64,000 nucleotides of DNA from Branchiostoma lanceolatum (lineage: Eukaryota > Chordata > Leptocardii > Amphioxiformes > Branchiostomatidae): contig NC_089727.1 of assembly GCF_035083965.1 (NCBI RefSeq), positions 8,685,501 through 8,749,500 of the forward strand, read 5' to 3'. The position numbers were made by a program, and so were the translations under genes. The notes below the pieces were generated by a model. It did not search any database. It saw nothing but the letters and a program-made list of their open reading frames with translations, and was not told the DNA's origin. Shown piece by piece: positions 1-28,194 of this stretch (position 1 is its first letter; the number at the start of each line of letters is the position of its first letter).

Positions 1-840
1 ACTCCTCACTGTAAACATGTATTAACGGTGTGTCCTACAGCGTGAATCACTGGACTACGCCAAATCGCGCTAGGAAATTGCGTCAACTTTGCGAACTTGC
101 GGCACGTGCGGCACAATAGCGTGCGACGCACGGGTAGAATACGTGACCTCTACAAACAAAATGGCCGGGACCGGAATGTCACATTTTCAGTTTCTGCCCC
201 AAACAAGATTTACCTTTACTGGAAATGGTAGTGTTACCACTAAATTAGAAATCATTGTACAATGATTAAGATTCATTGAAAAGAAATTTTGCGAATTTCA
301 TTGTTTGTTTTTTAATTTTTAAAACAATCGTAATTCTATGCGACAGATACCTGTTTGCGACACTTTGCGAATGCCGTTCGCAATTCAGCGCAGTCAGTGA
401 CATACCCGCATTACATAAACACAAATTATACGCCACAAGACATGTTTGCCATGGAGCAGACTAGAAGGCTAGTTTTCTAGTCCTGTCAACCGTGCCATAG
501 GTAAGTTTGTAAGAGAGATTTAGGAACAATATTTACATACCTGAAATGCAAGAGAAGAATTTATCTACTGAAGTTTCCCAAATTTGGAAGTCTTCCTTGA
601 ACTCCTTACCCACCGCCACCGACGATATTAAGAAATCATAAGATTAAGACACTTGCAGCGGCTTGGTGCCATGGGCATGCTCTTGATATAGGTCTTCAAT
701 AGGTGTAACGTAGTTTTCATGAAATAGGGCATTCATTGCCTGAACTATTTCTCGGTCTGCGGTTGGATTACAGATTCCCCAAGCATAACGTAGCATGCAG
801 GCGCACCCTGTCTAGCTGTACTACATATCAGGAGACGAAC
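1..840. other. Upstream flank without a recognisable gene
   Basis: No reading frame here looks like a known protein. A short frame opens at 162 in a good Kozak context (acaaaATGG) and runs about 34 codons; it could be a small first exon or chance. The segment 736-840 directly before the sulfotransferase start is probably its 5' UTR and promoter, but I see no TATA box. Confidence 0.4.
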
Positions 841-3800
841 ATGAAGACTGCAGCGGTGGTTGTGCCGTTCACAGCGCTCTGCTTGTGTCTTGGGGTCTTC
901 AACGCCTACTACAAGTACAAAGGTATGCTATTATAAAGTTTACTGACATAATCTAGATAGCTTTCTGGTAAACACAATACAATACGTGGCTTCCTAACTT
1001 CCTACAATACTCCCCAAGTACTAAAAATGCCCGTTCGCTGTAACAATGTTGTTTTTAAGAAGTCTGACTTCGGTATGCGTGGTAGGAGACTAAGCTATAA
1101 ATGTCGACGTTGAGGCCCCATACTGCAGTGACTAATTGGTGTGAGGCCATAGATTTTACCGCAACCGGTTCACAATTACTATTACATTTATGTCCGTTCC
1201 TGTTACAAGTGCTTACATCTGGCTTAAGGTGGCCTTTATTAGACCCACAAGTACGTTTTGCCGGATTATTGGACGGATGGCAAGTTGTGGTTTTGATTGT
1301 ACAAATGATTCTATCTATGTAGTTAGTCAATGTCTATCAAGACCATTTCACGATCCTTAGTGCTGTTATGGCTCTTTCTTCTCGGCTTGTTTCCTTTATT
1401 TCATTCATTCTTTCTTTACCCATTTTCTCTCTCTTTCTATTTGTTTATTCATGCGCCTCCTTGTCTTGTTTTTGCTGAAAAAGGTTGTTTGACAAAGTAT
1501 ACAATTTATGTTTGAATAACAAGGCCAGATTGATGCTTTGACGCACTAAATGTTGTTGGTCAAAGCACACATTTGATTGTTGAATACAAAGTTCAGAATG
1601 ATGCTTTGACGCACTAAATGTTGTTTTGCAAAGCATTCCTTTTATTGTTGAATACAAAGTTCAGAATGATGCTTTGACGCCCAGTTATTTAAACAATGTC
1701 TGAACAGATCACGTTGCAGACACCAATTGTACATTCGAATTCTCTGAACCGATGAGCCCCTATTTGTCGTGCTAATTATAAGGAGTAAATAACTCGACTA
1801 AGTCAAGTAAGTGAAGGACTAAATAAGGGCCGATTAACGTAGAAAAATAGAGGCATTGTTTTTGGCATGTCTGTCTACGTGTCTGTCTGTACATGTGTTT
1901 CCGTGTATTCGTGGTCTACATACGAAACCTCTGGATGGAATGTCATAATATTTGGTATGTGGGTAGGTGTTGGGTTGACAAAGGTCAAGGTCGGTTTTTG
2001 GCCCCTTGGTGTGTGACCTTGGTACTGCAGCAGAACGTCTGGCTTTTGTATCTTTTGTGCTGAAAAACGATGGTCCTGTTTGATTTCCATTCGATTAAAA
2101 GCTACTGTAACAGTCTCTCAACGAGTATCATATAAACTCATCCTGTTGTAAAGGTACAAACTTTTATAAGTTCGTTCACCATTCCGAGTGCGCATGCGCA
2201 ATGTTACAGGTAAAGACCCCTGTGACATAAGCAAAACACGTTCGAAATTGTTCTGCAAATGGCCGACGGAGTTCGAATCTTGGCATGTATAAAACATGGA
2301 CGAGACAAGAACTGTTACAAGTCAGAGGCCTTCACCTTTGACCTCGCGCATGCGTACTCGGAATGGTGAACGAGCTTACTGTTGTTTTCTGCGTATTTTA
2401 GAAGTCGTAGATGAAAGGCTGCCAGCTCCAAAACAGAACTGGGCGAAACGACACGACCAGGAGACGGGAGAACACAGAGACGGCCTGAGGGTGTGGGCAC
2501 GGCCCAGGCATGACTACTCTCACGTCAGCAAGGTGTTCTACAACCGGCTGCCCAAGTGTGGAAGTCGGCTGATGAAAGTGGTCATCGCGAATCTGGAGGA
2601 GAAGAATCGATTCAAGTTTGGTACAGCCGGCAATCTCCACGACAAGGCAATCCGTGGCGAAGCTTTGGTGAGTTCACTGTTCCTTAAATCGCCCAGACGT
2701 GTTTTGTCTTAGGGACCTTCGCATTTGCCAATTTACCCGCAATACTTGTCGCTGCGCATGCGTACTCTGAATCGTGAACGGCCTTATTTTTTGTTTATGG
2801 ATACAAAATGTCGTAACATAGCCTTATTTCGTACATGTGCGTGTTTTAGTATAGACATTTTTGTTTTTGGCGACGCCTCAGGGGAGAGTCTAATAAAAGA
2901 TTATTGACTTTTCCTATGTACATGTATAGCTACGGTTCGCACAGATGATAGACAAAATGCCGCGTCCATCCATTTACGAGAAGCACACCTACTTCATCGA
3001 CTTTCCATTGTGAGTATGTTCTTCAAATCCCCCCTAGCCTTTAAGGGGGGTGGTGGGGATAAGACGTTTTATTATTTCCAATAGGGACGACGCAAAGGAT
3101 TGTGAAGCATGTCCAATAGATTGTGTCAAAATCAAACGTCTACGTACGTGTTGTCTCAACATTGCGGTTTCTTTCCACGTCATCCTTTTCCGTCATACCA
3201 CTGTCATCGGTAGGGGATAGGACCATTCTATGCGATGTATTTCATAAAGGGAAAATGTATACGTTTCGTAATTCTCCGTGATTAATTTCATCATGTTGGA
3301 AAATAACTGGGTAACAAATTCTTTATTCATAACTAGGATCTAATAGTATATACAATCAACTATATTTTTTCACACACGACAATAAATATCATTGGCAATA
3401 CTTTACGTTTGGAACCGCATGCATGACAATACTTGACAGTTGTGATCGCTGCAGTGTGGATCTTCCATCAGTATTTCCCTAAGGAAGATGACAGACGGCC
3501 ACAGAACCCTTGGCTATTGATTGTATAAACATCATAGTTATGAATCTTTACAAAAACTTTATTACCCGGTATACGTTTCTTTCTTTCTTAAGGATGAATG
3601 CAGAACAGCCCATCTACATTAACCTGGTGAGGGACCCCATAGAGAGACGTGTTTCTGCTTACTACTTCCTCCGGTACGGGCGACATGGGAACGACTTCGC
3701 CGAGATCCTGAAGCTGAGACGAACAGAAGAACAGAGGAACCAGGTTTGGAAAACCTTTTGGATGTGTATTTTGTTCACCCTGTAGGCCTAGTGGCACGTA

Positions 3801-5624
3801 GGTTAGGCCAGGTCAGCAAGTTTCCTTGCTGTTTTAGTAACAGGGTATATTTATACATGAAAGAGTAGCTAGCCCTTCCCCTTAAACGTGCTCGAGGCAC
3901 CTCCTCAGACACGGGACCCCCATTTTACGTCCCTTCCGAAAGTCGGGTGCAACCCCAACCAAAATGCCCTTCCCGGGATTTTACCTGGGTCTCCAAGAAC
4001 CAGGAGCTCAACTGTAAGGCTGCTACCGGTTTAGCTACAGGGACATCCGTCTGGTGCAGCCAAATTCTTCAAAATTACTGCATAATTGCTTCAACATCAT
4101 GCCTCGTACAATTCATCTCGCTTGTTTTCGTGTTTGTAGACAATTGACTACTGTGTCGCCAACAACTTGCCTGAGTGCAGCGCCAACGAACCCAATAGCT
4201 TCATACTGACGCAGTACTTCTGTGGACAAAGTACCATATGCACGTAAGTTTCTGAGGACATGTAATCTGAAAAAGGCCTCGCACAGTAGCAGCATTTTCG
4301 AAATAGGAAAAAATCAGGGAAATAATTAAGAAGAATAGAATTGAAAGGTAACATTTGCAAGCAAATGCGTAATGTTTACTTGGTCTAGCCTAACAAATTT
4401 AAACTCTGTTTATTCTTACTCCAATACATTCATATACATAACGTGACTAGCCCCTCCAGCTCTGTCCTGCCACTTGCTACATTATGTAACCAAACACCAC
4501 ACGATGTCTGTTATACCTCCAGTCCAGGTCTTGTTTGGAGAAGAAAAGGGAACGAACCAAAAACAATGTTTCCCCTCTGTGACATTATCAACACCTAGTA
4601 TCATATTCTTCTCGCCGATGTGAAAAAACAAACATCATCCAGAACCTATCCAGTCTAAAGACTCCTGTACTGCGACATTGACTTAGGCCATCAATTGTTT
4701 GGAGAAGAAAAGGAACGGAGCAAAAACAATGTTTCCCTTCTGTGACATATAATCAGCACCTATGTCCTTCTCACCGATGTGAAAAAAATCACCCAGAACC
4801 TATCCAGTCTGAAGACATTGTGACGTTGACTTTTCTTAGGAGGCCTTCTCAGGCGGCAGTTGAGGTAGCCAAAGAGAACATCAGGAGACATTACGCCGTG
4901 GTCGGGGTACTGGAGGAGTTCAGCAGCTTCCTGAAGGTCCTGGAGGTGGTCATGCCGCAGTTCTTCCGCGGAGCTATTTCAGAGTGGAAAAAAATCGGTG
5001 CGTAATCTATCATCTCCCGAAAACAATGCCATCAGGTTGGTAGACCATAGGGTATTGGAGTTTTCTTTTTACACAGCCAGACACGTTACCTATAGCGGCG
5101 AGAAGCAGTACTCCAGTCAGAAGCTCTGAAAAGGGTGACTGACAGACACCGAAACGTTAGCTGGTAAGAAGTCACTGGTTGTGTAAAAAGAAAACTCCAA
5201 TATCCCGGGTATCTATCTCGCTGGGCTGCGCATTATTGCACCAAATTGCGAGATACTTAAACCGTCGCCAAATGGCACCAATTTGTCACCTAAAATTGCG
5301 ATCTATTTTGGAAAATTGAAAAAATTCCGCAATTGGCAAATAGGTGCAAACACTACAAATTTCTTTGTGATGAATTTAAATTATTGTACATTGGTTTTTG
5401 AGTCAGTAGCAACACTGCGATTTCCATTGTCCATATCGACAATTTTATACTTAAATATTGCAGAGTCGAGTCAATTACCAAATCAGAAGACGAGGAATAA
5501 GATACCTCCTTCCAAGAAGACCCAGAAGATACTGAGGCAGAGATTGTCGCTAGACTACCAAGTGTACGACTTTATTCTGGAGAGATTCCACATCCAGAAG
5601 AAACAACTAGGAATCAAGGACTGA
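841..5624 (+). CDS. 2-O-sulfotransferase, HS2ST/UST family
   Basis: Coding exons are 841-922, 2402-2667, 2945-3009, 3593-3743, 4140-4243, 4840-4997 and 5464-5624, giving 328 residues. The enzyme should transfer sulfate from PAPS to C2 of a uronic acid in heparan or chondroitin/dermatan sulfate, in the Golgi lumen. Residues 4-22 are a hydrophobic type II signal anchor. Residues 74-85 ([12 protein letters not shown]) are the 5'-phosphosulfate loop, and 151-166 ([16 protein letters not shown]) the 3'-phosphate motif. KHTYFIDF near 129 aligns with the catalytic-His segment: one His is kept, the other position is not His. The cysteine pair around FCGQSTIC is also conserved. The C-terminus ([13 protein letters not shown]) looks more like UST, while the 3'-phosphate motif looks more like HS2ST, so I leave the symbol open. 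It is shorter than I recall for human UST or HS2ST. The start at 841 opens the signal anchor directly. Confidence 0.9.
1531..1682. repeat. 68-bp tandem repeat, ~2.3 copies
   Basis: The core tgatgctttgacgcac recurs at 1531, 1599 and 1667, a period of 68 bp, inside intron 1 of the sulfotransferase gene. No coding potential. Confidence 0.8.
1861..2095 (+). repeat. Dispersed repeat, family D, copy 1
   Basis: It carries the phrases 'ataatatttggtatgtggg' and 'ttggtactgcagcagaac', which recur in whole or part near 26503-26720 and 55089-55270. It lies in intron 1 of the sulfotransferase gene. The class is unknown; probably an old non-autonomous element. Confidence 0.5.
2168..2376. repeat. Inverted repeat just upstream of exon 2
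   Basis: The left arm (gttcaccattccgagtgcgc, about 2173-2192) is inverted at about 2347-2372 (gcgcatgcgtactcggaatggtgaac). A related direct copy of the right arm lies at about 2755-2780 (gcgcatgcgtactctgaatc). The right arm ends about 30 bp before the exon 2 acceptor. This is likely a small MITE-like hairpin. Confidence 0.55.
3865..4050 (-). mobile_element. tRNA-derived SINE, copy A
   Basis: Read on the minus strand it begins with a tRNA-like head (an A-box-like TAGCTAAACCGGTAG, then a degenerate B box GGTAAAATCCC), followed by a tail that matches the repeat at 37085-37250 over more than 100 bp (shared phrase ttggttggggttgcacccg). Intron 4 of the sulfotransferase gene holds it. Confidence 0.65.
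4344..4694 (+). repeat. Dispersed repeat, family C, copy 1
   Basis: It starts with aaaggtaacatttgcaagca and continues through 'tggtctagcctaac' and 'agcccctccagctctgtcct'. The same order of phrases occurs at 7106-7412 (+) and inverted at 44350-44613. It is a non-autonomous element of unknown superfamily. Confidence 0.7.
4531..4839 (+). repeat. Imperfect tandem duplication abutting a splice acceptor
   Basis: A ~164-bp unit beginning ttgtttggagaagaaaagg at 4531 is repeated from 4695. The second copy runs straight into the acceptor of exon 6 (ttttcttag|G at 4839/4840), so the polypyrimidine tract of this exon borders duplicated repeat DNA. Confidence 0.75.
5050..5206. repeat. Hairpin element with ~31-bp arms
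   Basis: The left arm 5050-5080 (ggtattggagttttcttttt onward) is inverted at 5175-5206. The loop contains 'ccgaaacgttagctgg', a phrase typical of short palindromic elements. It lies in intron 6 of the sulfotransferase gene. Confidence 0.75.
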
Positions 5625-6576
5625 TTCATCTCATAATAAGATGCCAACTATTAGTAACCGATTGGAGACGATGTGAGGATGGGGGTCACTATGAGATATA
5701 CTTACATTCCAGCTTGTCTATTTCTTACTGTGTAAGAAGTTCCGCAATATCTGAGTTATGTCGTTATATTTTTTTTTTCATTTTCAGAAATGATGAGGAA
5801 ATAAAGCATCACAAAACCGATTTTATTTTATCAAACGCTCCGAATAAGCTGTGTTGCTGATAACTGATCATGTTTATATTCCGTTATGACATTGTCAGAG
5901 TGCCAGAGCGGTCATTGGATTCAGTGATACATATCAGACAGGGTGACTAAGAATGCAAAGTATATTTTTCACTTAGGAAGCTGTGTTGTTGTTGTTTCCC
6001 TACCTTGAATCCGTATTGAGTATAGTTTTTACACTGCTGACTGTTGATTGAAGCTATGATCGTGGCCTTTTAACTAATATGTGACAAACTCGTACCACTC
6101 TGCACGTTAGGAAATACATTTCATACAATACAAGAATGGAGTACTAGTATTATCAATTAGTAGAACTATTGCATCAAAGTGACATTTGACTCCAAGGTGG
6201 CGTGACTACTATCAGAGCTGAAGAAAAAACATCTTTATGAATGCTCTCATCATGCTATAATTCATCATGCATAACAGTTTGATTTCTCAATATCATCTTG
6301 CACAATTAAGCTTTCTTGCACGATTTTGACGGACTGAACCGAGTGGCGTTAGTGATTTTCGCAGGCAAGGTTGCCTTTTAAGCTACAGAATTACCGTTCA
6401 ACGCCCGTCCAAATATTAGTATGCTCCTGTTATATAATACTAGCACCATTGCTTAAACGTGTTGTTGATAAGTAGAGAAGATGATTGGTAAAAAGTCACA
6501 TGATGCGAAAATGGCAATATGCTCCTCAAGCAAAGCATGTCGGGGTAGGCTTCCGGCTTCCTCTTGAATTGTTACG
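5625..6576. other. Shared 3' flank of two convergent genes
   Basis: This holds the 3' UTR of the sulfotransferase (+) and probably the 3' end of the EF-hand gene (-). An AATAAA lies at 5800-5805 (+), and TTTATT at about 5822-5827 would be a minus-strand AATAAA. I see no coding sequence. Confidence 0.5.
5800..5805 (+). terminator. Polyadenylation signal AATAAA
   Basis: A canonical hexamer 176 bp after the sulfotransferase stop codon, the first one on this strand. Confidence 0.6.
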
Positions 6577-6874
6577 GCATTCTCCTACGCAGATCTAGAG
6601 CCTCTTCCGCGGCCTATACTCTACCTTGCGGAGGCTATGCTAAGCTGTGCTGAGGTGTCCACTTCTGTGGGCGTAGCCTCTAATCAGTAGTCAATATTAA
6701 AGAAGAAGAGAATCCCCTTTACCTAAAGAAAACATTTAGGCAATTCTTTGATTGGCTGAGAGCTGGTTAGATGCCACACCCACAGAAGTGAAAAACTGAG
6801 CCCGTTTTAATAGAGCCTCCCTAAGGTATATTGTATGGCCGCGGGCGATCGCGAGGCTCTGCGTAGAAGAATGC
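6577..6874. mobile_element. MITE with imperfect ~65-bp terminal inverted repeats
   Basis: The left end gcattctcctacgcaga is inverted at the right end (tctgcgtagaagaatgc), and the homology continues inward past 'ccgcggcc'. An inner inverted pair (cacttctgtggg / cccacagaagtg) is also present. It ends 15 bp from the EF-hand gene stop codon, so it forms part of that gene's 3' UTR. Confidence 0.75.
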
Positions 6875-6889
6875 TATCTGACAGCTGCT

Positions 6890-9800
6890 TCACTGTAGAT
6901 ATCCCCAAAGATGGTTCCCGGGCCTTGTCTCGTCCTCGCTGATGAAGAAGTCCTGCATGTGGATGTCCCACTCAGTCCTGGACACCATGCCGTCTCCATT
7001 CTACAAACAAAAGAGACAAGCAAACTTGTGAATAATTGAGTATTGCACCCCGTTAATCGATTATCATAATTATTACACAAATGCTTGTATAGAAAGTGAA
7101 AGACTAGAAAGGTAACTTTTGCAGGCAAATACATAGCGTTAACGCTCACATGCCCTGGTCTAACCTAACAAACACCGCTCTGTGTATTCAAATTGAAATA
7201 CATGTACATCCATATATATATGGTGACAAGCCCCTCCGGCTCTGTCCTTCCACTTGCGACATAATGTAACCGAACACCGCAGGGTGTTTCCTACTTCACC
7301 AGTAACCATGGTGACAGCTGTCTAGTCCAGGCCATTGACCTTATTTGTTTGGAACGAAAGAAGACTCGAAAGGAAGAAACGGAGCAACAAGTATATGTTT
7401 CTCTTTCGTAAAAGTAAAGATGAAAATATCACTGATGTATCTGACTACAAAAAGGTGTAGGAACAGGTTGTGTATGTAAGATAATAAGAAATAATTGTGC
7501 TTACAATATCTAGTTTGTTGAAGATATCCGCCGCGCTATTGTTCCTCCCAAAGGCTTCAAAGAATTTTTCGTAGTCCTTCAGCTTTATAGTGTTGTCACC
7601 TGCGTGAAATCGGTAATAAATGTGAGCTGCAGTTCCATACTGTCTGTATCAATAGCGTGGTAGGTGTTAGGGATAATGTTCCGCACCTAGTGAAATAAAT
7701 GTGAACTGTAGGTGCGTACGTAGCCTGTATACCAGGCTCCACATGTCGCTGAAAAATAGTAGAAATTGGCCAAATAGACAGACAACTTGCCAGATTAGTT
7801 AGTCCGCTAAAGGAGTACAGTTTGCGACCTAGGGAGCCTGTGAGGACTAGGTCCTGTGGAGCCTGGTAGAGGCTAGTGCGTACTGTCTGTATCAATATAG
7901 CGTGGTAGGTGTTAAGACGAGGTCCCTCACCTAGCGTAATAAATCTGAACTACAGGTCCGTTCTGACAGCGTATTGATAGCGTGGTATGTGTGTGGGATA
8001 AAGTCCCGCACCTAGCTTAATAATTGTGAACTGCAAGTTCGTACAGTCTGTATCCATAGCGTGGTAGGTTTTAGATATGAGGTCCCGCACCTAGCGTAAT
8101 TAATGTAAACTGCAGGTTCGTACCGTCCTTATCAATAGCATGGTAGGTCGCGCACCTAGCTTACTAAATGTGAACTGCAGGGTCATACCCTAGCGTATTA
8201 AATGTGAACTGCAGGTTCATACCATCTGTATCAATAGCTTGGTAGGTGTTAGGGATGAGGTCCCGCACCCATCGCGGAGCCTTGTTGATGTCGGTCCTGT
8301 TCATGAGCGCATGCGTCCACATGGAGTGGAACTCCTCCCGGGTGATCTGCTGGTCACCCTTCCCGTCTTTCCTGAACATCTTGCCCGCGTACAGGTTGTT
8401 CCAGAACGCCACCCAGCGGCGGTAGTACTGCACGTACTGTTTGGAGTCCTCGGTCCAACCGTTCAGTTTGATGTAGGCCTGGAAAGATTTGAAAAAGAAA
8501 ACGATAATAAGAAATCTATCAGGAAATTCTTAACCAAAGGCTGATTGCAAGTCGTGAATTTTTTTTTTGATTTTTTTTTTTTTAATTTCTTGTTATATTC
8601 GTTTTTGTGAATTTCTCACTGTTCTGTCGTGTTCATTTTTCCGTAACCTATTCTGGGACCTTTCTGGGACCTTTGACCTAACTTCCTGTCAGTGTCCCCG
8701 ACATGCCTCCCGACGGTCTACTCACTGCGCTGGAAACCAAACACACCACTGCATTAAATTGCAAATAACTACGGACACACAAACAAACCAACAGACAGAA
8801 ACATCGAAAACGAAACTTAGCTTTCGTACAGTAATGAGTCTGGACATCAGGTTTGCTACTAATACATATCTCATGGTGGGACTTTAGGAATCCTTCGACG
8901 CTATGTATGCGTTGAGCAGTTTCAAAGCTACCACACTGCATTCCAATTTCTTTAAAGTTTGTTTAGACACAATTTAGTATACAATAGTATTAAAGGAGTT
9001 AGTGGTTGAATGAGTTAGGCCTACTTTCAGACACAACAAAGTCCCTGAATACTTTTAGTGACCTACGTTTCTCTTTTGAATGTTTTTAAGTTGTTTACCA
9101 AAAATGAAAGTCTGTCATTGTAAAATAACACCAATACCCTTCAGAACACCCTTGTCGATACAACTTGATGAATGTGAGACAGTTGGTAAAGGTCGATATG
9201 GGGGGGGTTGAACTGTCCTAGGTGTCATTTGTCAGATAGATATTGATCTTGATGTTGGCAAGTGGTAGGCGGGACGGTACACTAATTGTTTTGGATTCTG
9301 CATGTTGTTGCTGCTGTTGTTGTTGTGCCTTTATTTATCAGTGAAAAACTCACATTTGGCTAAGCTGTTTAATTGGCCAACCACGTTACTACTACCGGGT
9401 GCCAAAGTCTACCCGGGCGGCGGAAAACTCCTTCTACACCGAAGAGAGCCCGGCCAATCCACGATGGACTGGATGCCAGGTTAAAATTCGTTTTTCGTTA
9501 AGGTCAAACAATTACAAATTAATAAAAATTGACTTCACTATACTTTGAAGGCGACGGTTCCCAGTCAATGTTTAGAATGGGTACCAATGGGTGCAGTCTC
9601 TCGTGGTGGAAATGTACATGTCTATAAACAACAACGTTAACAAAACAAGCAACTTCACAAAGAAATATAGCTGACATTGCTGATTAAATATTACACAATC
9701 TCTGTTCAAATACCAAGGTGGGGAATGGTCTGCCAACTCCAAATGTATAACGTTAGTTTGGCAACAAAATCATCGTCCTTGTTTTGGGACATACCAGGAA

Positions 9801-13253: not shown

Positions 13254-16200
13254 ATGATTGCCGACCGACGTGGTAGCATGGACGACTTGCCCAGTCGTAT
13301 GCCAAGGGTGACACTACAGAGACTAGGACTTGCCATGACCGTCCTTGTCTTGTTAAACTTCTTCCTGAGTTTCCAAGACGTGGTGAAAGTAGAGATACAT
13401 CTCAAAAGACGTCAGCACACCTGGTGGACCCACAACAGGTAAGGCCTGGTGACAACATGTTATTGTTTGGAGGCATTGTGATAATATCTAGAATAGTTCA
13501 GTGTGCTGAATGGTAAATAAGGACTGTGGCCTATTAGTAGCCTCTACCAGACTCCAGAGGCGGCTGGAAAGAGTAAAAATTAGCCAAATAGACAGAAAGC
13601 CAAGAGGAGTTAGTCTGCTATAGGGGTACAGTTTTACCGCTCTGAATGGCATATTGGACCCTTTCTCCGTAGCCGACTCGCTTAGCATAATATTCACTCT
13701 ATTTGGCCAATTTCTACTATTTTTCCAGCCATCCGCGAAGCCTGGTAGAGGCTAGCTTAACGTTAATTTATCACATGGACGAACAACATTTCTTTTGTTT
13801 TTCTTTTCTGCTTCTTTGTCCTTTTCTTCACGGTTGAATGGCGACCCGAAACAATGATGTGCTTACACAAAGATTTAGGTCCACAAAGTGATTAGAACAC
13901 CCACTGCACAAAAACCGCTCTTTAAGCACCTTATCTGTTGTCCAAACCAGTCTTTCAATACAATATTATCCAGTACACTATTTTCACACAGATTTAACAC
14001 TACCGACAGTCCCAAGTCTGACAATAAAACGTCGTCCTACAATCACTCCCAGGATGCTTTGCGGCGCAAGTATGATACCGTTGAATCTCTGATGGTGCCA
14101 ACTGACGTGGACGCATGGAAAGTAAACAGCACAGAAGTTCTACACTGGAGGTGAGATTATTACCCTCGGGAAGGAGGTTAACCTCCTAAGGGGGTACTGT
14201 TTTTGGATGTGTCTGTTCGCACCTGTAACTGAAGATCTTTTTTGATGGATTTGTATGGATTTTTGTGTGGGAAGATAATGAGGTCACAAAGAAACATTTG
14301 TGGGTCCCTAGCAGTATTCTCAGGTACTGCAGCATTACAGGCTGACACCCCCTACCTGAAAGTAGTATGGTATAGTCCATGGACAGTTGGTCAACCGTCA
14401 CCCCGACGAATGACCCTTTATGGAAGAAGATGGGATTGATCAAGGGAAGAAGGGAAGGGAAGGGGAGGATCGCTAACAAATATGGTGACTAGGGCTATGG
14501 CATTAAGGAATTCACAACTTAGAAAAATATGAAATTCACAATAATATTTCAATTTTCGATTTGATGTGCAATCTATTGATAAACTGCGTGCCCCGCTTTT
14601 TCAGACGATACATCACCCAGTACTTCAACCCGGAGAAAGACTTCACCGTTCTGAAGTCCGAGTACAAAGTGGGAGACACCGTCAAGTACGAGGTTTCCGT
14701 TCGGGATAGATGTAACATCACCGAGGAACTTCACCAAAACATGCCGGAAGTCAACCCTTTGGCGGGAAAACTCTTCCGGACGTGCTCCGTGGTGGGGAAT
14801 TCTGGGATACTTCTCAACAGCGGCTGTGGTCGGGACATTGACTCAGCCGACTTCGTCATCAGGTATTTTGATTTTTTTTTCTAAATATGATAAAAGAGAT
14901 AGGTTGTTTTCGATGAGCTACTTTGACTCATCCCTGTAAGATAGTAAAGTTAGACATTCAAATTACGTTCTGAAGTCCTAACACGTTCTCTTTCATGGAA
15001 TGAAGGAATGAAGGAATTAATGAAGGAATTAATGAAGGAATGAATGAAGACGAGACACATTTTATTTCCAAATGTTCAATTAACCTTGACGACAGAACAG
15101 AATTGTTTAAAGAAGTCACAATGACATACCCCATTTTTCCTACATCCACGGACGAACAGAAAGGACAAAATCACAAAACCCACAGATTATCATTTTTAAG
15201 TGTGGCTTTTCGTCTTCCTCATTTCAGAATCCTCTGCATTCCAAAAAAGAAGCCAACCCCAGGTTTTCTTAGCCTGAGTACCAACCTCCGTAGTGACCGC
15301 TGGCTCAAAAGAATTCGCTTGCTAACCACGGAGTCTGACCCTGCGCGTATCCGTCACGGCTGTTAGTCAGATATTCGTTTCGATTTTGAACGAGCTCGCT
15401 GATTGGCCCCATTCGTCTAAGCTCCTCCCCATGCCACACTGTTCTTCGTAACGGGTAGGTTCTAAGAACTGTTGCCATGGCGATTCTTTCAAAACTATAC
15501 CCGAACAGGGCAATAGAGACACATTGGAACGAAAAATGGCACCGAACGCAGCTCGAATTCCCCTCATTGCGTGATAATGAGACAGCCGTGACGGATACGC
15601 GCAGGGTCAGACTCCGTGGTTAGCAAGCGAATTCTTTTGACCCAGCGGTCACTACGGAGGTTGGTACTCAGGCTAAGGTTTTCTATCTACAGCCCATACT
15701 TGTATCTGTGTATAATCTTGTTACAATAATGTCAATCACTGTCCATTATTTCATGTGTGTCTCCAATGTTTCTACCATGGAATTGCAATTAGCCCTTGGG
15801 CATAAAACTTTCATTACCTTTCTTCAGGTGTAACTTGGCCAAAACCCTGCCCTATGTCCATGACGTTGGCATCAAACATGGCCTGACGACCATGAACCCC
15901 TCGGTCATGGCTCACGACTACAGATACCTGGATCAGAACGCCACGGTCAAGGCCAGGTTCGTGGATAGACTGCGGCAACTCGGGGACTCCATCTTCTATC
16001 AGTTCGCCTTTGTAAACAAGAATGGCAGAGACTACATGCAATGGACCAACGAGATTATAGTAAACGAGAGTCTTCCTCTTAAAAGTGTCTTTCCACCGCG
16101 AACCTGCAACGGCAAGATTAGAAAGTGAGTATTTCCTTGTATTCTGCCATATGCTATTGTAGAAGATATATCTATTTATTTTTTAATGAGTCTACTCAGT

Positions 16201-16858
16201 GCAAGGCCACAGGGAGCACTTTTGGTTAATCAACTAACACTCACTGTAGCAGCATCTCTTCCTATGTCAGAAACATCAAGCTTAGGCAAGGTCGATTAAC
16301 TGGCTCAATAGGAGAAGCAGGGGTTACGAAGGCTTCTCGGGAAATTCCCTGCCCTATGAATGTATGCTTTGAATTCGAAGGGTTTGATGTGTTTAGCGAC
16401 ACTTTATTTTTTTGCAGTATGTATATAATATGAGTGAGTGTGATATAGTGTTCATATCTCAACATAAAAAACTAGGACAAAAATGTGTAATACATTTTTG
16501 ACACTTTGGTCACAAGACAAGAATACGTAGTTGGCAAAGTTTCAATCATATATCTTAGTGACAAACGGTGTGTTGTTTTGACAGAGTTTGGAGCAGAACG
16601 AGAGAGTTCCAGTTCAAGCGTCCCTCCTCCGGCATGTATATGATCACGGTGGCGCTCACCATCTGTGACGAGATCCACGTGTACGGCTACTTCCCCTTCA
16701 AGGAGGACCACCGCGGTACCAGGCTACGGTACCACTACTACGACCACCGGCGGTACTCCACGGGCGGACTGCACGCCATGCCCAAGGAGTTCAGGGCCCT
16801 CAGACTGTTACACGACAGAGGAGTCCTCAGACTTCACAACGACAGATGTAGACCTTAG
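13254..16858 (+). CDS. Alpha-2,8-sialyltransferase, ST8Sia II/III/IV-like
   Basis: Coding exons are 13254-13438, 13992-14150, 14605-14862, 15828-16124 and 16585-16858, 390 residues. It should move sialic acid from CMP-Neu5Ac onto a terminal sialic acid in the Golgi. There is a short basic cytosolic tail, a membrane anchor at about 24-40 and an N-glycosylated stem. Sialylmotif L starts at 173 (RTCSVVGNSGILLNSGCG), motif S at 312 (RPSSGMYMITVALTICDE), motif III is HYYD at 350-353, and motif VS is H363 to E368 (HAMPKE). Cys175/Cys327 and Cys189/Cys388 match the two disulfides of the family. An intron cuts motif L between R201 and C202. The segment 291-312 before motif S is basic (KIRKVWSR), vaguely like the polysialyltransferase domain, so oligo- or polysialic acid synthesis is possible but unproven. 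Met9 and Met16 are alternative starts. Confidence 0.92.
13538..13754. mobile_element. MITE, TAGCCTCTACC termini
   Basis: Arms of ~56 bp start tagcctctaccagactcc and, inverted from the right end, tagcctctaccaggcttc; both continue through 'ggctgg' and 'ccaaatag'. It is the same family as 7721-7875. Its flanks no longer show a clear target duplication, so it may be older. It lies in intron 1 of the first sialyltransferase. Confidence 0.8.
15270..15675. mobile_element. 406-bp MITE with 94-bp inverted repeats and 9-bp target duplication
   Basis: Arms 15270-15363 and 15582-15675 are inverted copies with one mismatch seen. The outer end is tagcctgagtaccaacctcc. Direct flanks aggttttct at 15261-15269 and 15676-15684 are identical, a perfect 9-bp target site duplication. 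Long arms and a 9-bp duplication fit a Mutator-like non-autonomous element. It sits in intron 3 of the first sialyltransferase; near-identical arms suggest recent insertion. Confidence 0.92.
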
Positions 16859-16873
16859 TTAATATTAAGATTT

Positions 16874-17222
16874 ACCAATCAGGGGTAGTGCCTTCTCTGA
16901 CGTCATCTGTCCCAGAATGCGAGAGTTTTAGATCATGCTGAGCTTCACCAATCAGCGGTAATGCATTCCCTGACGTCACCTGTGCGAATTCGCCATAGCG
17001 ACAGCGGTAGATCCTCAGCTTCACCAATGGTATGCAAAGGCTTCTCTGACGTCACCTATGAACTGCAACGACGATGATGATGATGAACTGTAAACCCAAT
17101 CAATCAGGAAAGATACCATCTCTGACGTCACATATCCCAGAATACATCATAATAAAAATGGATCCTGACTGGACCTATCAGAGTCAATATTTTTCCTGAC
17201 GTCTTACCACTCTGTGACGTCG
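16874..17222. promoter_or_regulatory. Tandem CCAAT + CRE (TGACGTCA) array
   Basis: TGACGTCA is present at 16898, 16971, 17047 and 17123, with TGACGTCT at 17197 and TGACGTCG at 17215. CCAAT stands about 23-26 bp before each of the first four (near 16874, 16948, 17023 and 17098). The period is 73-76 bp. The palindrome is the CREB/ATF site. The array starts 16 bp after the stop codon of the first sialyltransferase and ends ~0.8 kb before the start codon of the second. Confidence 0.7.
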
Positions 17223-17276
17223 AACGTCCCTGGCCTGGTCATAATTTCAAATGTCGAACCTATTATAAACTAATCT

Positions 17277-17418
17277 AATAAAAGAGTGAATAGTAGAAAA
17301 ATAGAACACAGTTGAATAAAAGAACTGTTCCTTGTTGGTCGAATGCAATTTTGTTATGGATGCCGTGTGTCTATAAAATGCCAGTTTAAGTTGGTTGCTA
17401 TACTTTTCGTGAAATAAA
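17277..17418 (+). terminator. Candidate polyadenylation signals of the first sialyltransferase
   Basis: AATAAA occurs at 17277-17282 and 17413-17418, with an earlier one at 17151-17156 inside the CCAAT/CRE array. If either later site is used, the array is transcribed as 3' UTR. Confidence 0.4.
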
Positions 17419-17874
17419 GGATATGATCACATATCATATGCCCTGGTCTGAAACTCAAAACATCCACAAACATCGTGTGGGTTGTGACAAGCAAAAGCAA
17501 TTATGAATGTAAATAACTATGACTAATTTCAGAGTGATCCATTTGAAAACCAAATCTAGACGTTTATTCCTTGATGTCATACAGCAGATTCTATAAAAAC
17601 GTAATCTCCAGATTTTATCTTAAATTTGTGACATGAGAAAACTTGTCAACTCTATACGTCATACCAAAACGCACGTCAATTGCGGGTAATGATAAACGTG
17701 TACAACAGCTTAGGGGAGTTATATAGCCCCCCTCCCCATTTAAGATTGCTGTTTCCAAGGCCAGTCGCTCGTTTTAGTCTAATCGTGCCTACAGGTAAGG
17801 TTGAATGACCTTTGCGGCACACGTCAGACCAGTTTTTTCCACTAGTTGACACGACATAATTACCATAATTAAAA

Positions 17875-17925
17875 ATGGCGGCAGTGCCAAAACATGTAGA
17901 AGTAGTCTCGTCTAAATCAGATTAA
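17875..17925 (+). other. Possible upstream ORF of the second sialyltransferase
   Basis: A 16-codon frame (MAAVPKHVEVVSSKSD) opens in aaaaATGGCG, a strong initiation context, and closes 91 bp before the start codon at 18017. If transcription starts upstream of 17875 it would lower translation of the main frame. The transcription start is not known. Confidence 0.3.
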
Positions 17926-18016
17926 CCTTGGCCCCAGAAAACGGACCAATCGTGTTGAGATTGGTGTATAACTGTTAAAACGATAGGAGAAACCCCGCAC
18001 AGATACAAGAACTACA

Positions 18017-21000
18017 ATGAGACGACGTTTGCAGTACCTCTCCACCAGGTGAGTTCCTTTTAAATAATTTGATTAGAGGGAGGGGTCGGAAACTTCATGT
18101 GAGTGACGAAAACCCGGAAACTGGACACACGCTGTTTTCAGTCAGCCTTTGGTCATGATTTTTCAAAGGTTGATATACCTATGGAAACCATGATGTGTGT
18201 GTCATGTTCTTGACTAGATTGTGAGTTGCCAGTGCAAACTATACGTCTCATGTTGCGTGGCAACCTTGAAACAATTTAAGATACAGTTATATAGCAAACA
18301 TTACATAACAAACTACTTATATTGGATTGAACTTCAAAATCAGTAATTTCATTACGTGGCTGTGCAGTGGTTAACATTTCACCAGCCATCTCAGGATGTT
18401 CGTTTGTATCATACACACATACATACATAACGTTACATACGAGTACATAGGGGACGGTCCAAAACGGATTATAGATAGTAGTGAGAAAATTTGGGTACAA
18501 TTTTCTAGACAATACTTCGATTGAAACTTAGTCGTTTGATGGTCTAATTCTTTTTTTACATCTGTAAGTTCAAAAGTTTATCTTTGTCTTCACCCTCCCT
18601 ATGTATGTTTGCTATTTTCAACCAGTCCACTTCTAGTCTGTCCTTGACGACTCATTTTAACAGTCACCGTTCTGTTGCGATGTGGTCGTCACTGAAAAGG
18701 CCTTGACACCTTATACATACGTCATTTCATTTACAACCCCACCCGACCCCCACACCTCCCAACAAGGAACCACCAAAATCTGGCCACAATGGTCAGGTGA
18801 GATCCTTATAAGGAGGTGGTCACTAGTTTTATTGCATATACTATTTCTTCAGTGACACGTTGGTAGCAGGGCGTCAAATCTGTGTGGCTCTCCTCAAAAT
18901 ATCGGACCTCCGGCTTTACATCCCATCCGAGAGAACGGCCTTTACGAAAGCTATGTACTCATTTTAATCAACATGAATAGAGTGATGGAATAGGTGTGAC
19001 GTGCCTCTCCCACGGGCACATTATTCTGGCCTTCTAGGGTTTGGAACCCATAACCTTTAGATTCTAAGAACAGCCCACAAGACCACGCTGACAAAGTTCA
19101 ATTGTTTTCAGGATCAGACCGCTGGGGTTTCGCAAGACTAACTTCAATATGTTCCTGATCGTACTGATAAATGTACTTGGCATAACCTTGGTTATATACG
19201 GAATTCGACTCGGCAGTGAAGACAAGACAATCACCAAGGCTTATGGCATAGACTTACAAGACATTACGAACAGTACTACTTACAACAGAGAAGAAGTCGA
19301 AACAGCAACAGATTCGGAAGAGACTTCATCGGAAGAGGAGTCAGACGAGTGGCACCTGAATCCCTTTCCTGCCCTGAGGGCTCTATGGAGCAATACAGAG
19401 AGTACCCTACCAGTTATGCCAGAGTTAGACAGCATAGAGAACCAGGTCACTTACCCTGAAGCCACCAACCCCATCATGGAAAGAATAGAGAAGCACTGGA
19501 ACGAGGAACTTTGCCAAGCTATGCAGTAAGTATGATTAGTTATATATTTAACGTTATTGTTTCACTTGTTTTCATTGTTTATTGTTCATTGTGTATTTGC
19601 ATAAATACAAACATTGAATCATATAATGATGACAGGGAAGAAACAAAACATGCAGGGGAGGCCAGAAATCTATATTTGGCTTATCCTGGGCCCCCCTCAA
19701 AACGTGATACTAAAATTGTATAAATTATAAAGTAGCTATACATTGCTAAGCAAGCAAAATTGACTAATGGATGAAAAAAGTCAAAATTATATAATGGCCA
19801 GATTCACCGGAAGTTTACAGATATGAAGACAATTAAGAGTCTTCAAATCTATGAAAGGAAAAGTGAAATATCTTATCCCACAGACAGCTGTTTAAACGGC
19901 CTATCATCATGATTGTTTGAGCGAAAATAGATACATTGTATTTGACAAACTCAAGAGACCCAGAATCAACGGAAAAAGTGATGTTGTCAATTTTAATTTT
20001 TTTCAAAGTATACACTATAAACAAATTTTGTCGTTGTTGATTTTTTTTCTATTTTGCTGAATGTTAACATGGCATTGTCCAAATGTTAACAACTGGATGT
20101 TTTCTGTAGGAATTTAAGCCGACGTTTCTACGACCCAAGACGGCACGTGATCCCCCTTAGAGAACTCTACAAGTTCGAGCGATTCTGCAACTCCTCCACG
20201 TTCACCTTAAAGACTTCTACCAAAACCAAGAAAAGACTATGTGACGTCGTCAGCACACCCATCCAACACTACCGCACATGCGCAGTAGTGGGGAACGGAG
20301 GCATCCTCCTAAACAGTAGCTGTGGTGCTGAGATAGACGCTCACGACTTTGTCGTCCGTTCCAACCTCCCTCCTACACTGCCCTACCGACAGGACGTTGG
20401 AATAAAAACCAACTTCACAGCTGTGAATTTCGAACGCCTTATACAAGTCAGAGACCAACTGAAGTCGTCCAATCCTCGTGTGTTGGATGACGTGTTCGCG
20501 AGGTTTAGGAGTTCCCCGGGTATGGTGTTCGCGTACGGACTGAGTCTGTCGGACGAGAGGAACCAGAGGAGAATGACTGGTACTGCGCGGACTGTCAGAG
20601 AGAGGGGCCTGCCTGTGACGTTTGCGTTCGCTCACCGATCGTACATGGACAGCAAAGGGTAAGTAAACTGGGACGATGAAGATTAACCGACATGGTGGGG
20701 TTGGGAATAAAATGATGCTAAGTTGCTGTCAAAGTAAAAAAAATTCCCAGATTGATTCACTCTAAACTTGAAGAGGGACAGTCCTTTTCTTTTTTAAGCC
20801 AACCCCGTTTAGTAATTCTCTATTGATGATTATCTTCTGTTTAATTTTTCTAGCTAGCTCTTCATAATTATCCTATCTTTCCCTAACACACACACACACA
20901 CACACACACACATCCACTCACACATTCCTCACATGGACGCCAAATCTTACAAACAAATGTTCTACTTCGAAGGAAACTGTTTTGATGTATCATGTGCGTA

Positions 21001-21397
21001 TTGTTTTGATCCCATGTAGCTGTTCCGATGTAGGTACTGTATATTCTGTGTCCATGTAGGTATTCTGACGTATGTATGTTGTGTCGGTGTCAGTGTTCTG
21101 ATGTATGTGCTGTGCCCGTGCAGGATGTGGTACCTTCTGTCCGGCAAACAGAACCACCTCCCCTCCACTGGTCTGAACGTCATGGGGCTAGCCTCGTCCT
21201 TCTGCGACAAGATCTCCCTGTACGGCTACTTCCCTTTCGACTCCGACATACACGGGAAGAAGGTCCCCTACCACTACTACGACCAGAAGCTGGCGGCGGG
21301 TTCACACAACATGGCCAACGAGTTCATAATCTACAGGAGACTGCATGACCTGGGTATAATCAGGCATATAATCGGTCGCTGTGATCCCGATCCTTAA
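18017..21397 (+). CDS. Alpha-2,8-sialyltransferase-like protein, second of cluster
   Basis: Coding exons are 18017-18048, 19112-19525, 20110-20658 and 21124-21397, 422 residues. The tiny first exon encodes a basic tail (MRRRLQYLST) joined in phase to exon 2, which supplies the membrane anchor at about 24-42. The stem is long and carries an acidic patch (SEETSSEEESDEW). Motif L starts at 204 (RTCAVVGNGGILLNSSCG), motif S at 345 (PSTGLNVMGLASSFCDKI), motif III is HYYD at 382-385, and H393 to E398 (HNMANE) is motif VS. Cys206, Cys220, Cys359 and Cys418 fit the family disulfides. After motif L it reads VRSNLPP, Ser where the first gene has Cys. Motif L is not split by an intron. VGNGG suggests the ST8Sia I/V/VI side, but the acceptor cannot be told from sequence. 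Confidence 0.9.
18049..19111. other. Intron 1 of the second sialyltransferase
   Basis: No exon, clear element or long repeat is visible in this 1.06-kb stretch. Confidence 0.4.
20886..20911. repeat. (CA)n microsatellite
   Basis: About 13 uninterrupted CA units in the last intron of the second sialyltransferase. Confidence 0.95.
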
Positions 21398-24338
21398 AAC
21401 TTCCCTTTGTGTAAATGAAACACCACATTAACTACCAATTCATATATGTAAATACATTACGTTTGGGACCACATCTGTAAACAGCGACACCTATACCTGC
21501 AGTGCAAAGTGAACCAAAGGAAGTCAGTGGAAGGTGACAGATGGTCACCGAAGCGTCGGTGTGAATAAGTCACTTGGTTGTGTACAAGTGATTTTGTTAT
21601 TCAAGACAGGCCTGAGGCCTGTCTCAAAATCTAATTGTATATATTTATATATTACCACGTAATGATCCCTACATTGTAGACATATGACAGTACATAGGAA
21701 ACTGTCTAGTGTTAGAAATATCCCCAAAGACAAGTATATAGTCTCATACAATAGTGAATTTATACAGACTTTTGTAGAGCAGAGCAGTTTCCTATAGAAC
21801 CATTGAGAAATTGTGAGCTAACATACCTACAGTTGTTGTTACAAATACTAGACGTTGCCATCCGTTGAATCTTATAAAACTGTTGTGCAATAAATTTATT
21901 GTATTATTATCATTTATCATTTATACCAGAGCCATATAAAAAATACATGGAACCAAAGCCTTTTAGAAATGTCGCATAGCAAAGCCTATTTAAGATATCG
22001 TGTGAATTAAGAGTCTAAGATAAATACTAGTTGTCTATATTCATGATAGATGAGAGTCTATAGTAAATGCATAATTAGTTATCTAACGTTATCACAGACA
22101 TTAGTTGACCTGTTTAAAAGAGCATTATGATTTCTAAAGAATAACGGTATAATGTTGCTTAAATGCTGTTGTCGAAATATTGCATGTCTATGAAATTCTG
22201 CGTAAATGACTTATGTGTCCCTGTCAACATGATAGTAGCATTCAATCGTTTACTTATGTTTCTTCAATCGTTTACTTATGATAATATTTGTCATCATTCA
22301 AGTTGATGCTTACCCCTATTCGAGCTTTTAAGCGTGTTTTGTCACACGTTTGTCTTGCAGTGCCTTATAAATGGATGTGTCTTTATCAGGCAGTATGACG
22401 CAAAAATAAAATATCTATTCATTCATTTAGTCGTTTGTTCATGAATCTATCTATCTATCAATTCATTTAGCCATTTAGAAATAGTTGAAAAATTTACTGA
22501 AACCTGGGGGGTGGATAGCGCTTGTCTCGTTCACAGGAGGCCATAAATAATTGAATAGGATTGACCCATTTCGAGAAATACAGCAGTACAGTAGATATAG
22601 AGTGGACGGAAACAGTATCTTCATCACAATAGTTCATATACATGAGCAAGAGGGCTCAATTATTAGATAGAACCTACTTACTTGAGGTATGGTTTCCAGC
22701 CTTATACCCGATCCAGGGCACTTTGACATAACGTTAAGATTAAGGTCCATATTCTATGACAAAATATTTTGGCATACATTCTTTTCTACAAGCTCTACAA
22801 TGAAGTATCTATAGCTGGTTTCGGAAAAGACTTACTGTGCAACCTTACTACGTTGTTGAAAACACCGAATTTGTAGTGACAACTTGAATCTCGGCCTACA
22901 TTCGGTGCACGACCCTGATCCAAATTAAGATCTTTCGTGCCTAATTGCACAGAAACATACTTTAAAAAAAATAAATAGTCATTATGTTATGCCATTTCCA
23001 AATACCACAGTCTTTTCTCTGTGTCTTTTCAAACAAGCATTCAATCACCGTTCAAACTGGGGTCAAAAAGGCTACATCGGGGGCACCTTTCTTCTGGACC
23101 CGGTTTCTTCAGAAACTCTTATAGACCCTCGTGCAGTGACCTCCATCATGTTCTCCCATACACACCCATTAAATGCTCAATTATTCATGGCAGGTACGAA
23201 ATCATTTAGTCAGCAGGTAACCAAAAGGGATCAATCACCGAAGAAGGCTTCATCCAGGCTTTCTGAAAGGCATTTTCAAAGTCTTTTTGCAAGTCTTAAT
23301 ACTTTAAGTCTGTTCCGAACGCGTTTCACATGCCTGGGGCTATGCACCACAAGGTGAACGGACGAGTACGTGTGACAAAACCAACGTAAGGTCATAGGTT
23401 ATACTGACGATCTTCTGAGTCATTGTACTGTAGCACACCCACGGAATCCACTGAAGCATATGATGGTTGACCCCCTTCTCTCATTTTGAATCTCAGTGCC
23501 CTGGGGAATACATGTCACTGTACTACTTACTCAGATACTGCGTCGGAATTCCGCCATCCAATGGAGTGATCATCGTTTATAGGTATGCTGGCCATATCGT
23601 GTATCCATCCACATTAGTGATTGTTGTAAAATTAGATCTAGTAAATGTTGTGACAAAACGCGTACGACCCTCTACTGTTGTAAACATGACTCTCACACAT
23701 GTACTCCATAGCCTATCCGTACTATTGTGTTGCTATGGGATACTATTGATAGCAATAGTCTTTGAGAGTGGTAGTCAACTGTTACTGCTACGCTGTAGGC
23801 TTTGTGTTTGTTTTAAACAATAAAGGGCGTTTTGTGAATGGCATTTTGGTCGCCCAATGATGATTATGAGGGCCTGCATGGGTGGTTAGTGATGACGAAT
23901 TACGCAACATTGTCACCGCCGATTACGAATTACGTTAAATCAGGGGGCTTCCGAACAGACGTCAACACTTTATGCAAAATTCAACTACTTTTGCGTCAAA
24001 ACGATTGATTTTATGTTGAGTACCAATTTTTGCGGACACCTTCTTGAGGGGCGCTACATGGGAGCGTGCCGACAACGCTCGACGATAAATTCTGGAGCAC
24101 TGCCTAACGTTACATATGACGCTATATATTGAATTCAGTTAGCCTCTCTACGCTAAATTCTGCGTCAAACTGACACACACGTAGCGGCTGAACTCTTGCG
24201 TCAAAGCTGGTGATTTCTAGCAGCTTGGACGTGACAAGGGCATCCTAATTTAGTTGTTTGCATTAAACGTCTGAGTGATAACGACCACTTGTAGACTAAT
24301 TAACGTGAGGTCACAAAGAATACCTTATGAATGAAGAT

Positions 24339-24340
<2 letters not shown>
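21398..24340. other. Intergenic region between sialyltransferases 2 and 3
   Basis: This holds the 3' UTR of gene 2 and then AT-rich DNA. Around 21480-21600 there is a short-element fragment ('cggtgtgaataagtcacttg' type). At 23870-24230 several near-repeats of gcgtcaaa and gaattacg occur. The open frame at 22989-23357 shows no similarity I recognise. Confidence 0.4.
21889..21894 (+). terminator. Polyadenylation signal AATAAA
   Basis: A canonical hexamer ~490 bp after the stop codon of the second sialyltransferase. Confidence 0.5.

Positions 24341-24374
<34 letters not shown>
24341..24374. repeat. (TA)n microsatellite
   Basis: About 17 TA units, between the second and third sialyltransferases. 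Confidence 0.95.
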
Positions 24375-24378
<4 letters not shown>

Positions 24379-24547
24379 CCAACTGACCCCCAAATATATA
24401 CTGTCACTGGCAAAGGGATAATTGAAATGTTGCTGTCGTACACAAGATTCCCCCGTCTTCGAATATTTCCTTCCGCACTAAGTGACAAATTCTACCCCAT
24501 ACCCCCCTCAGTGAACCAGCCCTTATCTAGAGGAAGGGTGGGGCAAT

Positions 24548-24796
24548 CGTAGTGCATAAGACATGTAGAAAGGGCGACAATTATACTGCAGAAGACATGT
24601 GAAAACTGTGACAAATGTACTGCACTAGACAAGTAGAAATTGATAATTCTTTTGCATAAGACATGTAGAATATGTGATGATTCTACTACATAATACGTGT
24701 AGAAAGGGTGACAATTGTGATGGATAAGACACGTAGAAAGTGTAACAATCGCACTGCATAAGACATGAAGAAAGTGCGACAATTCTACTACATAAG
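24548..24796. repeat. ~34-bp minisatellite, array A
   Basis: Seven diverged units of the form acatgtagaaagtgtgacaa + ttgtactgcataag. The same unit forms array B at 27058-27260, so the two arrays bracket the piggyBac-like element and exon 1 of the third sialyltransferase. Confidence 0.85.
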
Positions 24797-24952
24797 ACAT
24801 ATCCTACGGTATTGTCTAACTTAACTTGTCGCACCGAAACAGGTAAACATAGTTTCTTGTCGAGTGATTTGACGAGAACTTCAACCATGGAAAGAAGGGA
24901 TTGACATCTCATGGATATAAAGTTTACGAAGATTGAGTCAGTTTGTGTTTAA

Positions 24953-26280
24953 CCCTCATCCGACCGTATGGGGTCCGTTTGGACCCCAGGCGTGTTTCAC
25001 TGTGTGCCATATCAACATTTTTCGTTGGAGAAAAAAGTCCTTCCATGAGTTTGTTCATGTACATGTCTTACAACTCCTGAGAATTTTTTACCGGGATTGG
25101 CCGATTTTTGCGGAAGTTATACTCTAAAGTGTGCGTGTTGTCCGCTGGGGTCCAAACGGACCCCAGATGATTTCGCATTGTTTATTAAGTAATAAGAAAG
25201 AAATTCCTCATAACTCCCAAACGGTTAAATGTATCCTCACCAAATTTGCAAGGAGTGATGTTCACGTAAAATTTTATAATTTCTGTAAATTTTGTGACGT
25301 CATGACGTAATATTACGTAATTATGACGTCATCGATGTGATTTTATAGGCTAAATAGGGAAGTCCCATAATATTGAAAGGTATTAAACAAAATAGAGTGT
25401 ATTATTGATTTTAAGGTATGCCTAGGCAAGCAACGTCAATGGCGATTACGATGACACCAAAATGACGTCACAGAATGACGTCATGAGTCGTTAGCGATCC
25501 CTGGGATCCGCCATCTTGGATCGGCCATTTTGAAATTTTTAAATTACATTTTTTCCATTTATGACCCCAAATCACAAAAGAAAGAGACTGGAAACGTTAA
25601 TCTAAATGTTTCTGGTTAAGAAAATACCAGGTAGTGACGAATTTGAAGGCAAAAAAGCCTGTTTATACCTAAAATAAACATATTGTCCGCCATCTTGGAT
25701 TTTGAGCGATTACGTAATCAAATTAGCATAAATTATGAATAATTAATTATGAAAGTTACATCTAAATACATATGATGTTATACAGGTTGGAAAACTAGTG
25801 TGGTTGAGCAAGAGAACCTGAGAAATATCATTGTTTTTAAAAAATTAGTGACTTTTTGTATAAAATGCCCGTCAGAAACCCGTTGCCATGGCAACAGGAA
25901 AAATGATAAACTTAAAATATTATCATGGAATTGTTGCCAACCAAATTTCAGGAAAAGTCACCAAGTTTGGTAATCTTAGCATACGTCATTTGGCAGTTAT
26001 ACGATGTCAAAGTTGGCGCGGGCACTTTTAGCCCCACCAGTCTAGATAGGGTTAAAGGAAAATGCGGGTTCTCCTCATTTTCTGCATAAATTATGATAAT
26101 GAGCATTAATCCTCAACACCAAAAATTGTCAAAATATTCTCCATAGGTTATTGTAACAGGATATGCACAATAACTACGATAAGATCCACCAGAAATATAT
26201 TTAGGGGGCAAAGCAAAATGGGGTCCGTTTGGACCCCATACGGCCAGATTCGTCGCAAAAATGTGTCGGTCGGATGAGGG
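24953..26280. mobile_element. Non-autonomous piggyBac-like element
   Basis: The element is flanked by TTAA on both sides (24949-24952 and 26281-26284). Its ends are perfect inverted repeats, CCCTCATCCGACCG. TTAA target sites with CCCT termini are the piggyBac hallmark. Subterminal palindromes GGGGTCCGTTTGGACCCC occur near both ends, and an inverted version lies near 25147. There is no transposase frame. The interior carries four TGACGTCA sites (about 25296, 25327, 25461 and 25476), a TGACGTAATATTACGTAAT block near 25304 and GCCATCTTGGAT (YY1-like) at about 25510 and 25689. Confidence 0.88.
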
Positions 26281-26364
26281 TTAAAGAATGCTTCGTTTTC
26301 CCTCTTCCTTTGTGCAGTTTTTTATGAAGATGTACTGCTGGTCTGAATAAGTAAACCAGTCTCC

Positions 26365-28145: not shown

Positions 28146-28194
<49 letters not shown>

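Follow-up and report, generated by a model that had tools for sequence, protein, structure and literature searches.

Can an intron be built from the end of the exon that precedes it? The question is raised by intron 3 of a predicted EF-hand gene on the minus strand of the 64-kb stretch of DNA analysed here (the window). This intron is a tandem array of units of about 79 bp, each of which combines the final 46 nt of exon 3 with the donor and some 33 nt of intron sequence. An earlier note on this DNA had described units of about 80 bp that repeat the exon end, the donor, and the intron start, and had offered two readings, growth of the intron through repeated duplication spanning a splice junction, and a locus at which alternative donors lengthen the EF-loop region. 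The current evidence supports the former, with the exon as the source of the array, and does not support the latter as a path to a working protein. Very probably, the locus is best explained as a minisatellite of the mirage type, involving tandem duplication, drift of the copies, splicing from the first donor, and a later insertion of a MITE.

The Host Gene

The predicted gene possesses introns of 1285, 1921, 623, and 504 nt, and the spliced frame of its joined exons measures 232 aa. The best solved relative of the protein is calexcitin (2ccm, E 7.9e-24, residues 44-231 of 232), followed by juvenile hormone diol kinases and a sarcoplasmic calcium-binding protein, and a Pfam search, with a query sequence that was approximate near its end, returned EF-hand families. 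Similarity across most of the protein, along with the EF-hands, points to a gene of the calexcitin/sarcoplasmic calcium-binding protein kind. Intron 3 interrupts the third EF loop (DTDG/DNT).

Table 1. Features of the EF-hand gene and of the array in its third intron, in window positions.
Feature	Position	Strand	Remarks
EF-hand gene, five exons	11921-11741, 10455-10400, 8478-8223, 7599-7505, 7000-6890	minus	predicted from splice signals and homology
Exon 3	8223..8478	minus	contributes its last 46 nt (8268-8223) to the repeat unit; from splice sites, spliced frame, and unit alignment
Intron 3	8222-7600	minus	623 nt
Real unit	8190..8268	minus	exon 3 end, real donor at 8222 (ATG/GTATGA), 33 nt of intron
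U1b	8156..8188	minus	without exon part; donor-like GTATGA at 8188; 30/33 to real unit
U2	8091..8155	minus	14-nt gap in exon part; donor-like GTACGA at 8123; 56/65 to real unit
U3	8012..8090	minus	full copy; donor-like GTACGA at 8044; 67/79 to real unit
U4	7931..8011	minus	full copy, 2-nt insertion; donor position GAACGG at 7963, GT lost; 61/79 to real unit
U5	7687..7930 (7930-7884 + 7719-7687)	minus	full; MITE splits donor-like GTACGC at 7719; 66/78 to real unit, MITE closed up
MITE	7720-7875		156 bp (7712..7883 with flanks); 8-bp direct repeats GTGCGTAC at 7712-7719 and 7876-7883
U6	7613..7686	minus	last copy; donor-like GTATGG at 7640; 66/79 to real unit (row includes tail)
Unique tail	7600..7612	minus	13 nt up to and including acceptor AG; neither array nor MITE
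Exon 4	7505..7599	minus	completes third EF loop (DTDG/DNT)

Composition of the Array

The period of 79 nt is apparent both in autocorrelation and in the output of Tandem Repeats Finder, the latter placing it at 7875-8148 and reporting a 34-nt period at 8155-8223. In a wraparound alignment with the MITE closed up, the repeat runs from exon 3 to 7613, only 13 nt short of exon 4, making the earlier statement that all of the intron apart from a MITE consists of such units nearly exact. Of the 623 bases, 446 belong to the array, 164 to the MITE with one copy of its target, and 13 to neither, and once the MITE and its target duplication are set aside, the array accounts for 446 of the remaining 459 bases. 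Downstream of the real unit follow one copy lacking the exon part (U1b) and five fuller copies (U2-U6), one of them shortened. All six unit-to-unit junctions read CTAG, followed by GTG in five. A tree of the units, with support of 22 to 67, does not resolve their branching, and the six informative columns disagree, with two grouping U4 and U6 and one grouping U4, U5, and U6.

The inserted MITE noticed earlier is real, possessing perfectly complementary 14-nt arms near its ends. It occupies the donor-like site of U5, thus its insertion must be later than the copy itself. A longer, palindromic relative of this element is found at about 13537-13747.

Chance, Assembly, and Other Repeats in the Window

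The reading of the intron as copies of exon sequence had been made dependent on homology of the exon end to the intron units and on the array not lying elsewhere as an unrelated satellite. As to the first, aligning the final 48 nt of exon 3 (8270-8223) to intron 3 yields a score of 70, a value reached by none of 1000 dinucleotide shuffles of the intron (best shuffle 28) and far from the best (25) of 196 controls, these being other 623-nt stretches of the window, on both strands, that do not touch 7000-8800. Five successive matches to the exon end beat every shuffle (41/45, 40/45, 40/44, 34/42, and 18/19), and the next three within the intron do not exceed all shuffles; in four copies, 34-41 of 42-45 positions agree with the exon end, and the fifth agrees partially. 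Chance similarity is ruled out by the shuffles and the window controls. A simple assembly echo is also ruled out, as the fuller copies share only 77-86% of the compared positions with the real unit (30/33 in U1b). As to the second, no further occurrence of the unit within the 64-kb window emerged from a sensitive self-comparison.

The intron part of the unit offers no such parentage. Its scores against exon 3, exon 4, and intron 2 were reached by 41, 341, and 397 of 500 letter shuffles, respectively, and derivation from any of these was rejected. Its score against intron 4 was reached by 17 of 500, which we take as chance, as eight comparisons were made. The 13-nt tail behaves similarly, with 284, 475, 227, and 312 of 500 letter shuffles reaching its scores against exon 3, exon 4, intron 2, and intron 4.

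Self-comparison revealed 11 clusters of local direct repeats in the window, including the array of intron 3. The other ten were read by eye, without gene models, and none clearly spans a donor. One of them, at 4531-4816, runs up to a likely acceptor. In this region (4531-4840, plus strand) a tandem duplication of about 164 bp is seen, 82% identical over 134 columns, whose second copy reaches the likely acceptor of a plus-strand exon starting at about 4841, and this duplication is a possible mirage at a 3' splice site. The neighbouring gene there, for which no Pfam family was found, presumably resembles a 2-O-sulfotransferase.

Among the other repeats, a nearly identical 34-bp unit makes up two separate arrays, at 24553-24800 and 27051-27241, the latter in an apparent intron, about 60 bp past a donor and without exon sequence. 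Two further arrays, at 49768-49948 and 56793-57065, are built of units of about 69-75 bp that appear by eye to be reverse complements of each other. Of other genes in the window, three of the six frames tested within 15793-28804 (plus strand) match glycosyltransferase family 29 (sialyltransferase), which suggests a local cluster of such genes, and a 428-aa open frame at 57642-58928 (minus strand), with a weak match to zf-RVT, is probably the end of a retrotransposon.

Decay of the Copies

The exon-derived and the intron-derived parts of the units diverge equally, matching the real unit in 179 of 215 and 167 of 198 cells, respectively. Raw differences of the copies from the exon (12/76, 3/70, and 21/69 at the three codon positions) lean toward the third position, which could hint at a coding past. 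However, two columns at which no copy with a base agrees with the exon account for ten of the 21 third-position differences, and when derived states are counted once per column over U2-U6, the codon positions receive 8, 3, and 10 changes (P 0.19), with no significant bias. Selection on the exon-derived parts was rejected on these two grounds. To judge from the sequence, the copies look more like neutrally decaying remnants than like an alternative coding sequence.

The earlier note had also pointed to a word of the exon, taccaagct, that reads taccacgct in most copies, and had supposed that the copies may preserve an older exon sequence. The difference itself is correct: where the exon has CAA, four of the five copies with that base have CAC and one has CAT, and the same five copies have GAC in place of the exon's GAT. 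Either the exon or the founding copy may have changed at these positions. As a general rule, the supposition fails. The last exon base is G in the exon, and U2-U6 have G, T, A, A, and A at this position, A being a change that would turn the glycine of the calcium loop into serine; the copies therefore cannot be read simply as an earlier state of the exon.

Splicing

At least five decayed donors in series had been claimed; there are six such positions downstream of the real donor, five retaining GT (lost at 7963). The most serious alternative to a decaying minisatellite is that these sites are in use, with the donors or cassettes of the units varying the third EF loop or shutting the gene down via truncated messages. 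Besides the retained GT, it may call upon AG at all six unit junctions and upon the strength of two of the sites, as the computed pairing with U1 is -5.1 kcal/mol at 8188 and -4.3 at 8123, compared to -4.2 at the real donor; the remaining positions pair more weakly (-2.9 to -0.7 kcal/mol). The products speak against it, however. All six donor extensions result in 176 or 183 aa in place of 232 aa, with only the first 165 residues in common. Of the five possible cassettes, four (U2, U3, U6, and U5 including its MITE) cause a frame shift, and the one cassette that keeps it, U4 (48 nt, 248 aa), lacks GT at its donor. Use of the downstream donors or cassettes to produce a working protein was rejected on account of these truncations, frame shifts, and the lost GT, and, considering also the lack of constraint on the exon-derived parts, we find a role for the array in alternative splicing very unlikely. 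Most likely, splicing still joins the first donor, the genuine one, to the sole genuine acceptor, which would remove all copies as intron, and the copies are probably without function. Donor-like sites arranged serially behind a real donor present a natural test of the fidelity of the spliceosome to the first donor.

Origin of the Array

As to the direction of copying, the exon part of the unit encodes VRDLIPNTYQAIDTD, which aligns with solved calexcitins, and the unit is found nowhere else in the window, so the array must derive from the exon. We propose that a segment of about 79 bp across the donor of intron 3 underwent tandem duplication on its intron side. This single duplication would have created a junction, and the unit bearing it would then have multiplied, junction included, by slippage or unequal exchange. 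The copies would have drifted, and the MITE would have landed in one of them once that copy existed.

U6 and the 13-nt tail, if taken as the original intron, amount to 41 nt, and it is conceivable, if rather doubtful, that the ancestral intron was included in its entirety in the founding duplication, and that an intron of 41 nt reached 623 nt, counting the MITE, through duplication of itself along with the adjoining exon end. Each unit would in such a case be a fossil mini-exon with a former acceptor and donor of its own. The tetranucleotide GGTG is common to exon 3 (8269-8266) and to the border between the acceptor and exon 4 (7600-7597), where the CTAG/GTG junctions lie, and with GGTG at the likely breakpoints, the unit would reproduce the exon end together with the entire intron. 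Nevertheless, the CTAG of the junctions is as likely to originate from the exon 3 bases just upstream of the unit (GCGATGG) as from the acceptor (CGCAG), each path, by reading, needing two small changes. The intron may have been only about 41 nt long before the expansion, provided that no unique intron sequence was lost later.

Another possibility is that intron 3 itself originated when an exon segment containing AGGT was duplicated in tandem, the array being its remnant. That the intron is almost entirely array, that five of the six unit junctions read CTAG/GT, and that mirages have been proposed as a path to new introns in the available portion of the globin paper (PMC3087553) all lend it some appeal. 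However, the feature that defines such a birth, a duplicated exonic AGGT providing both splice sites, is missing, as the 46-nt exon part contains no AGGT, and this motif arises in the array at unit junctions only. Furthermore, the roughly 33 nt of intron in the unit do not match exon 3 or exon 4 convincingly in the shuffle comparisons (41/500 and 341/500), and the array starts at a donor that already existed. We regard this scenario as highly improbable. The idea that the exon end was captured by, or arose from, an unrelated satellite in the intron has in its favour only that the intron is nearly all array, and it is practically untenable, given that the exon end encodes an EF-hand segment alignable with calexcitins from other animals and that no unit was found elsewhere in the 64-kb window.

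On the preferred reading, the array is an example of a decayed mirage that makes up almost a whole intron, and the growth of introns becomes a matter of simple comparison, as related species should have either a short intron or younger arrays.

Comparison with Known Systems

Minisatellites known as mirages, spanning exon-intron boundaries, are described, in the portions of the papers available to us, for the amphioxus Adh3, globins BflGb6 and BflGb9, and troponin C (PMC3087553; PMC3902484). Their units carry AG/GT signals in many but not all cases, their copy number varies, and the data are taken to suggest that regular splicing is undisturbed (PMC3087553). The array of intron 3 likewise spans an exon-intron boundary, with its units in the adjoining intron, and likewise retains the signals in many units (GT in 5/6, AG in 6/6); as in BflGb9, it is the 3' boundary of an exon that is copied. 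On sequence grounds, we judge it to be of the mirage type, a further example in another gene, and the list of such genes in print for amphioxus, as far as the accessible text goes, thus gains one. No paper on the array of this EF-hand gene was recognised among the matches listed in a literature search, no paper was found by gene name, and the accessible parts of PMC2206037 and PMC2632668 contain nothing on boundary repeats. The array differs from the mirages in these sources in its host gene, in its well-decayed copies, in occupying nearly the whole intron, and in the MITE inside, and its unit of 79 bp compares with 10-72, 150-160, and 157 bp in print.

A similar case is PGBD5 of lancelet, whose imperfect tandem repeats of 60 and 108 bp lie across or next to splice sites and differ in copy number between assembly versions; the same source, in its available part, contrasts them with the globin, Adh, and TnC repeats, which it terms perfect (PMC3902484). 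The array of intron 3 is imperfect and placed at a splice site as well, in another gene. Tandem genomic duplication of an AGGT segment, described as a route of intron gain in the available text of PMC3443670, also arranges sequences resembling splice sites in series, but the segment copied in intron 3 already held a donor and lacks AGGT in its exon part, and what is seen is growth of an intron rather than its gain.
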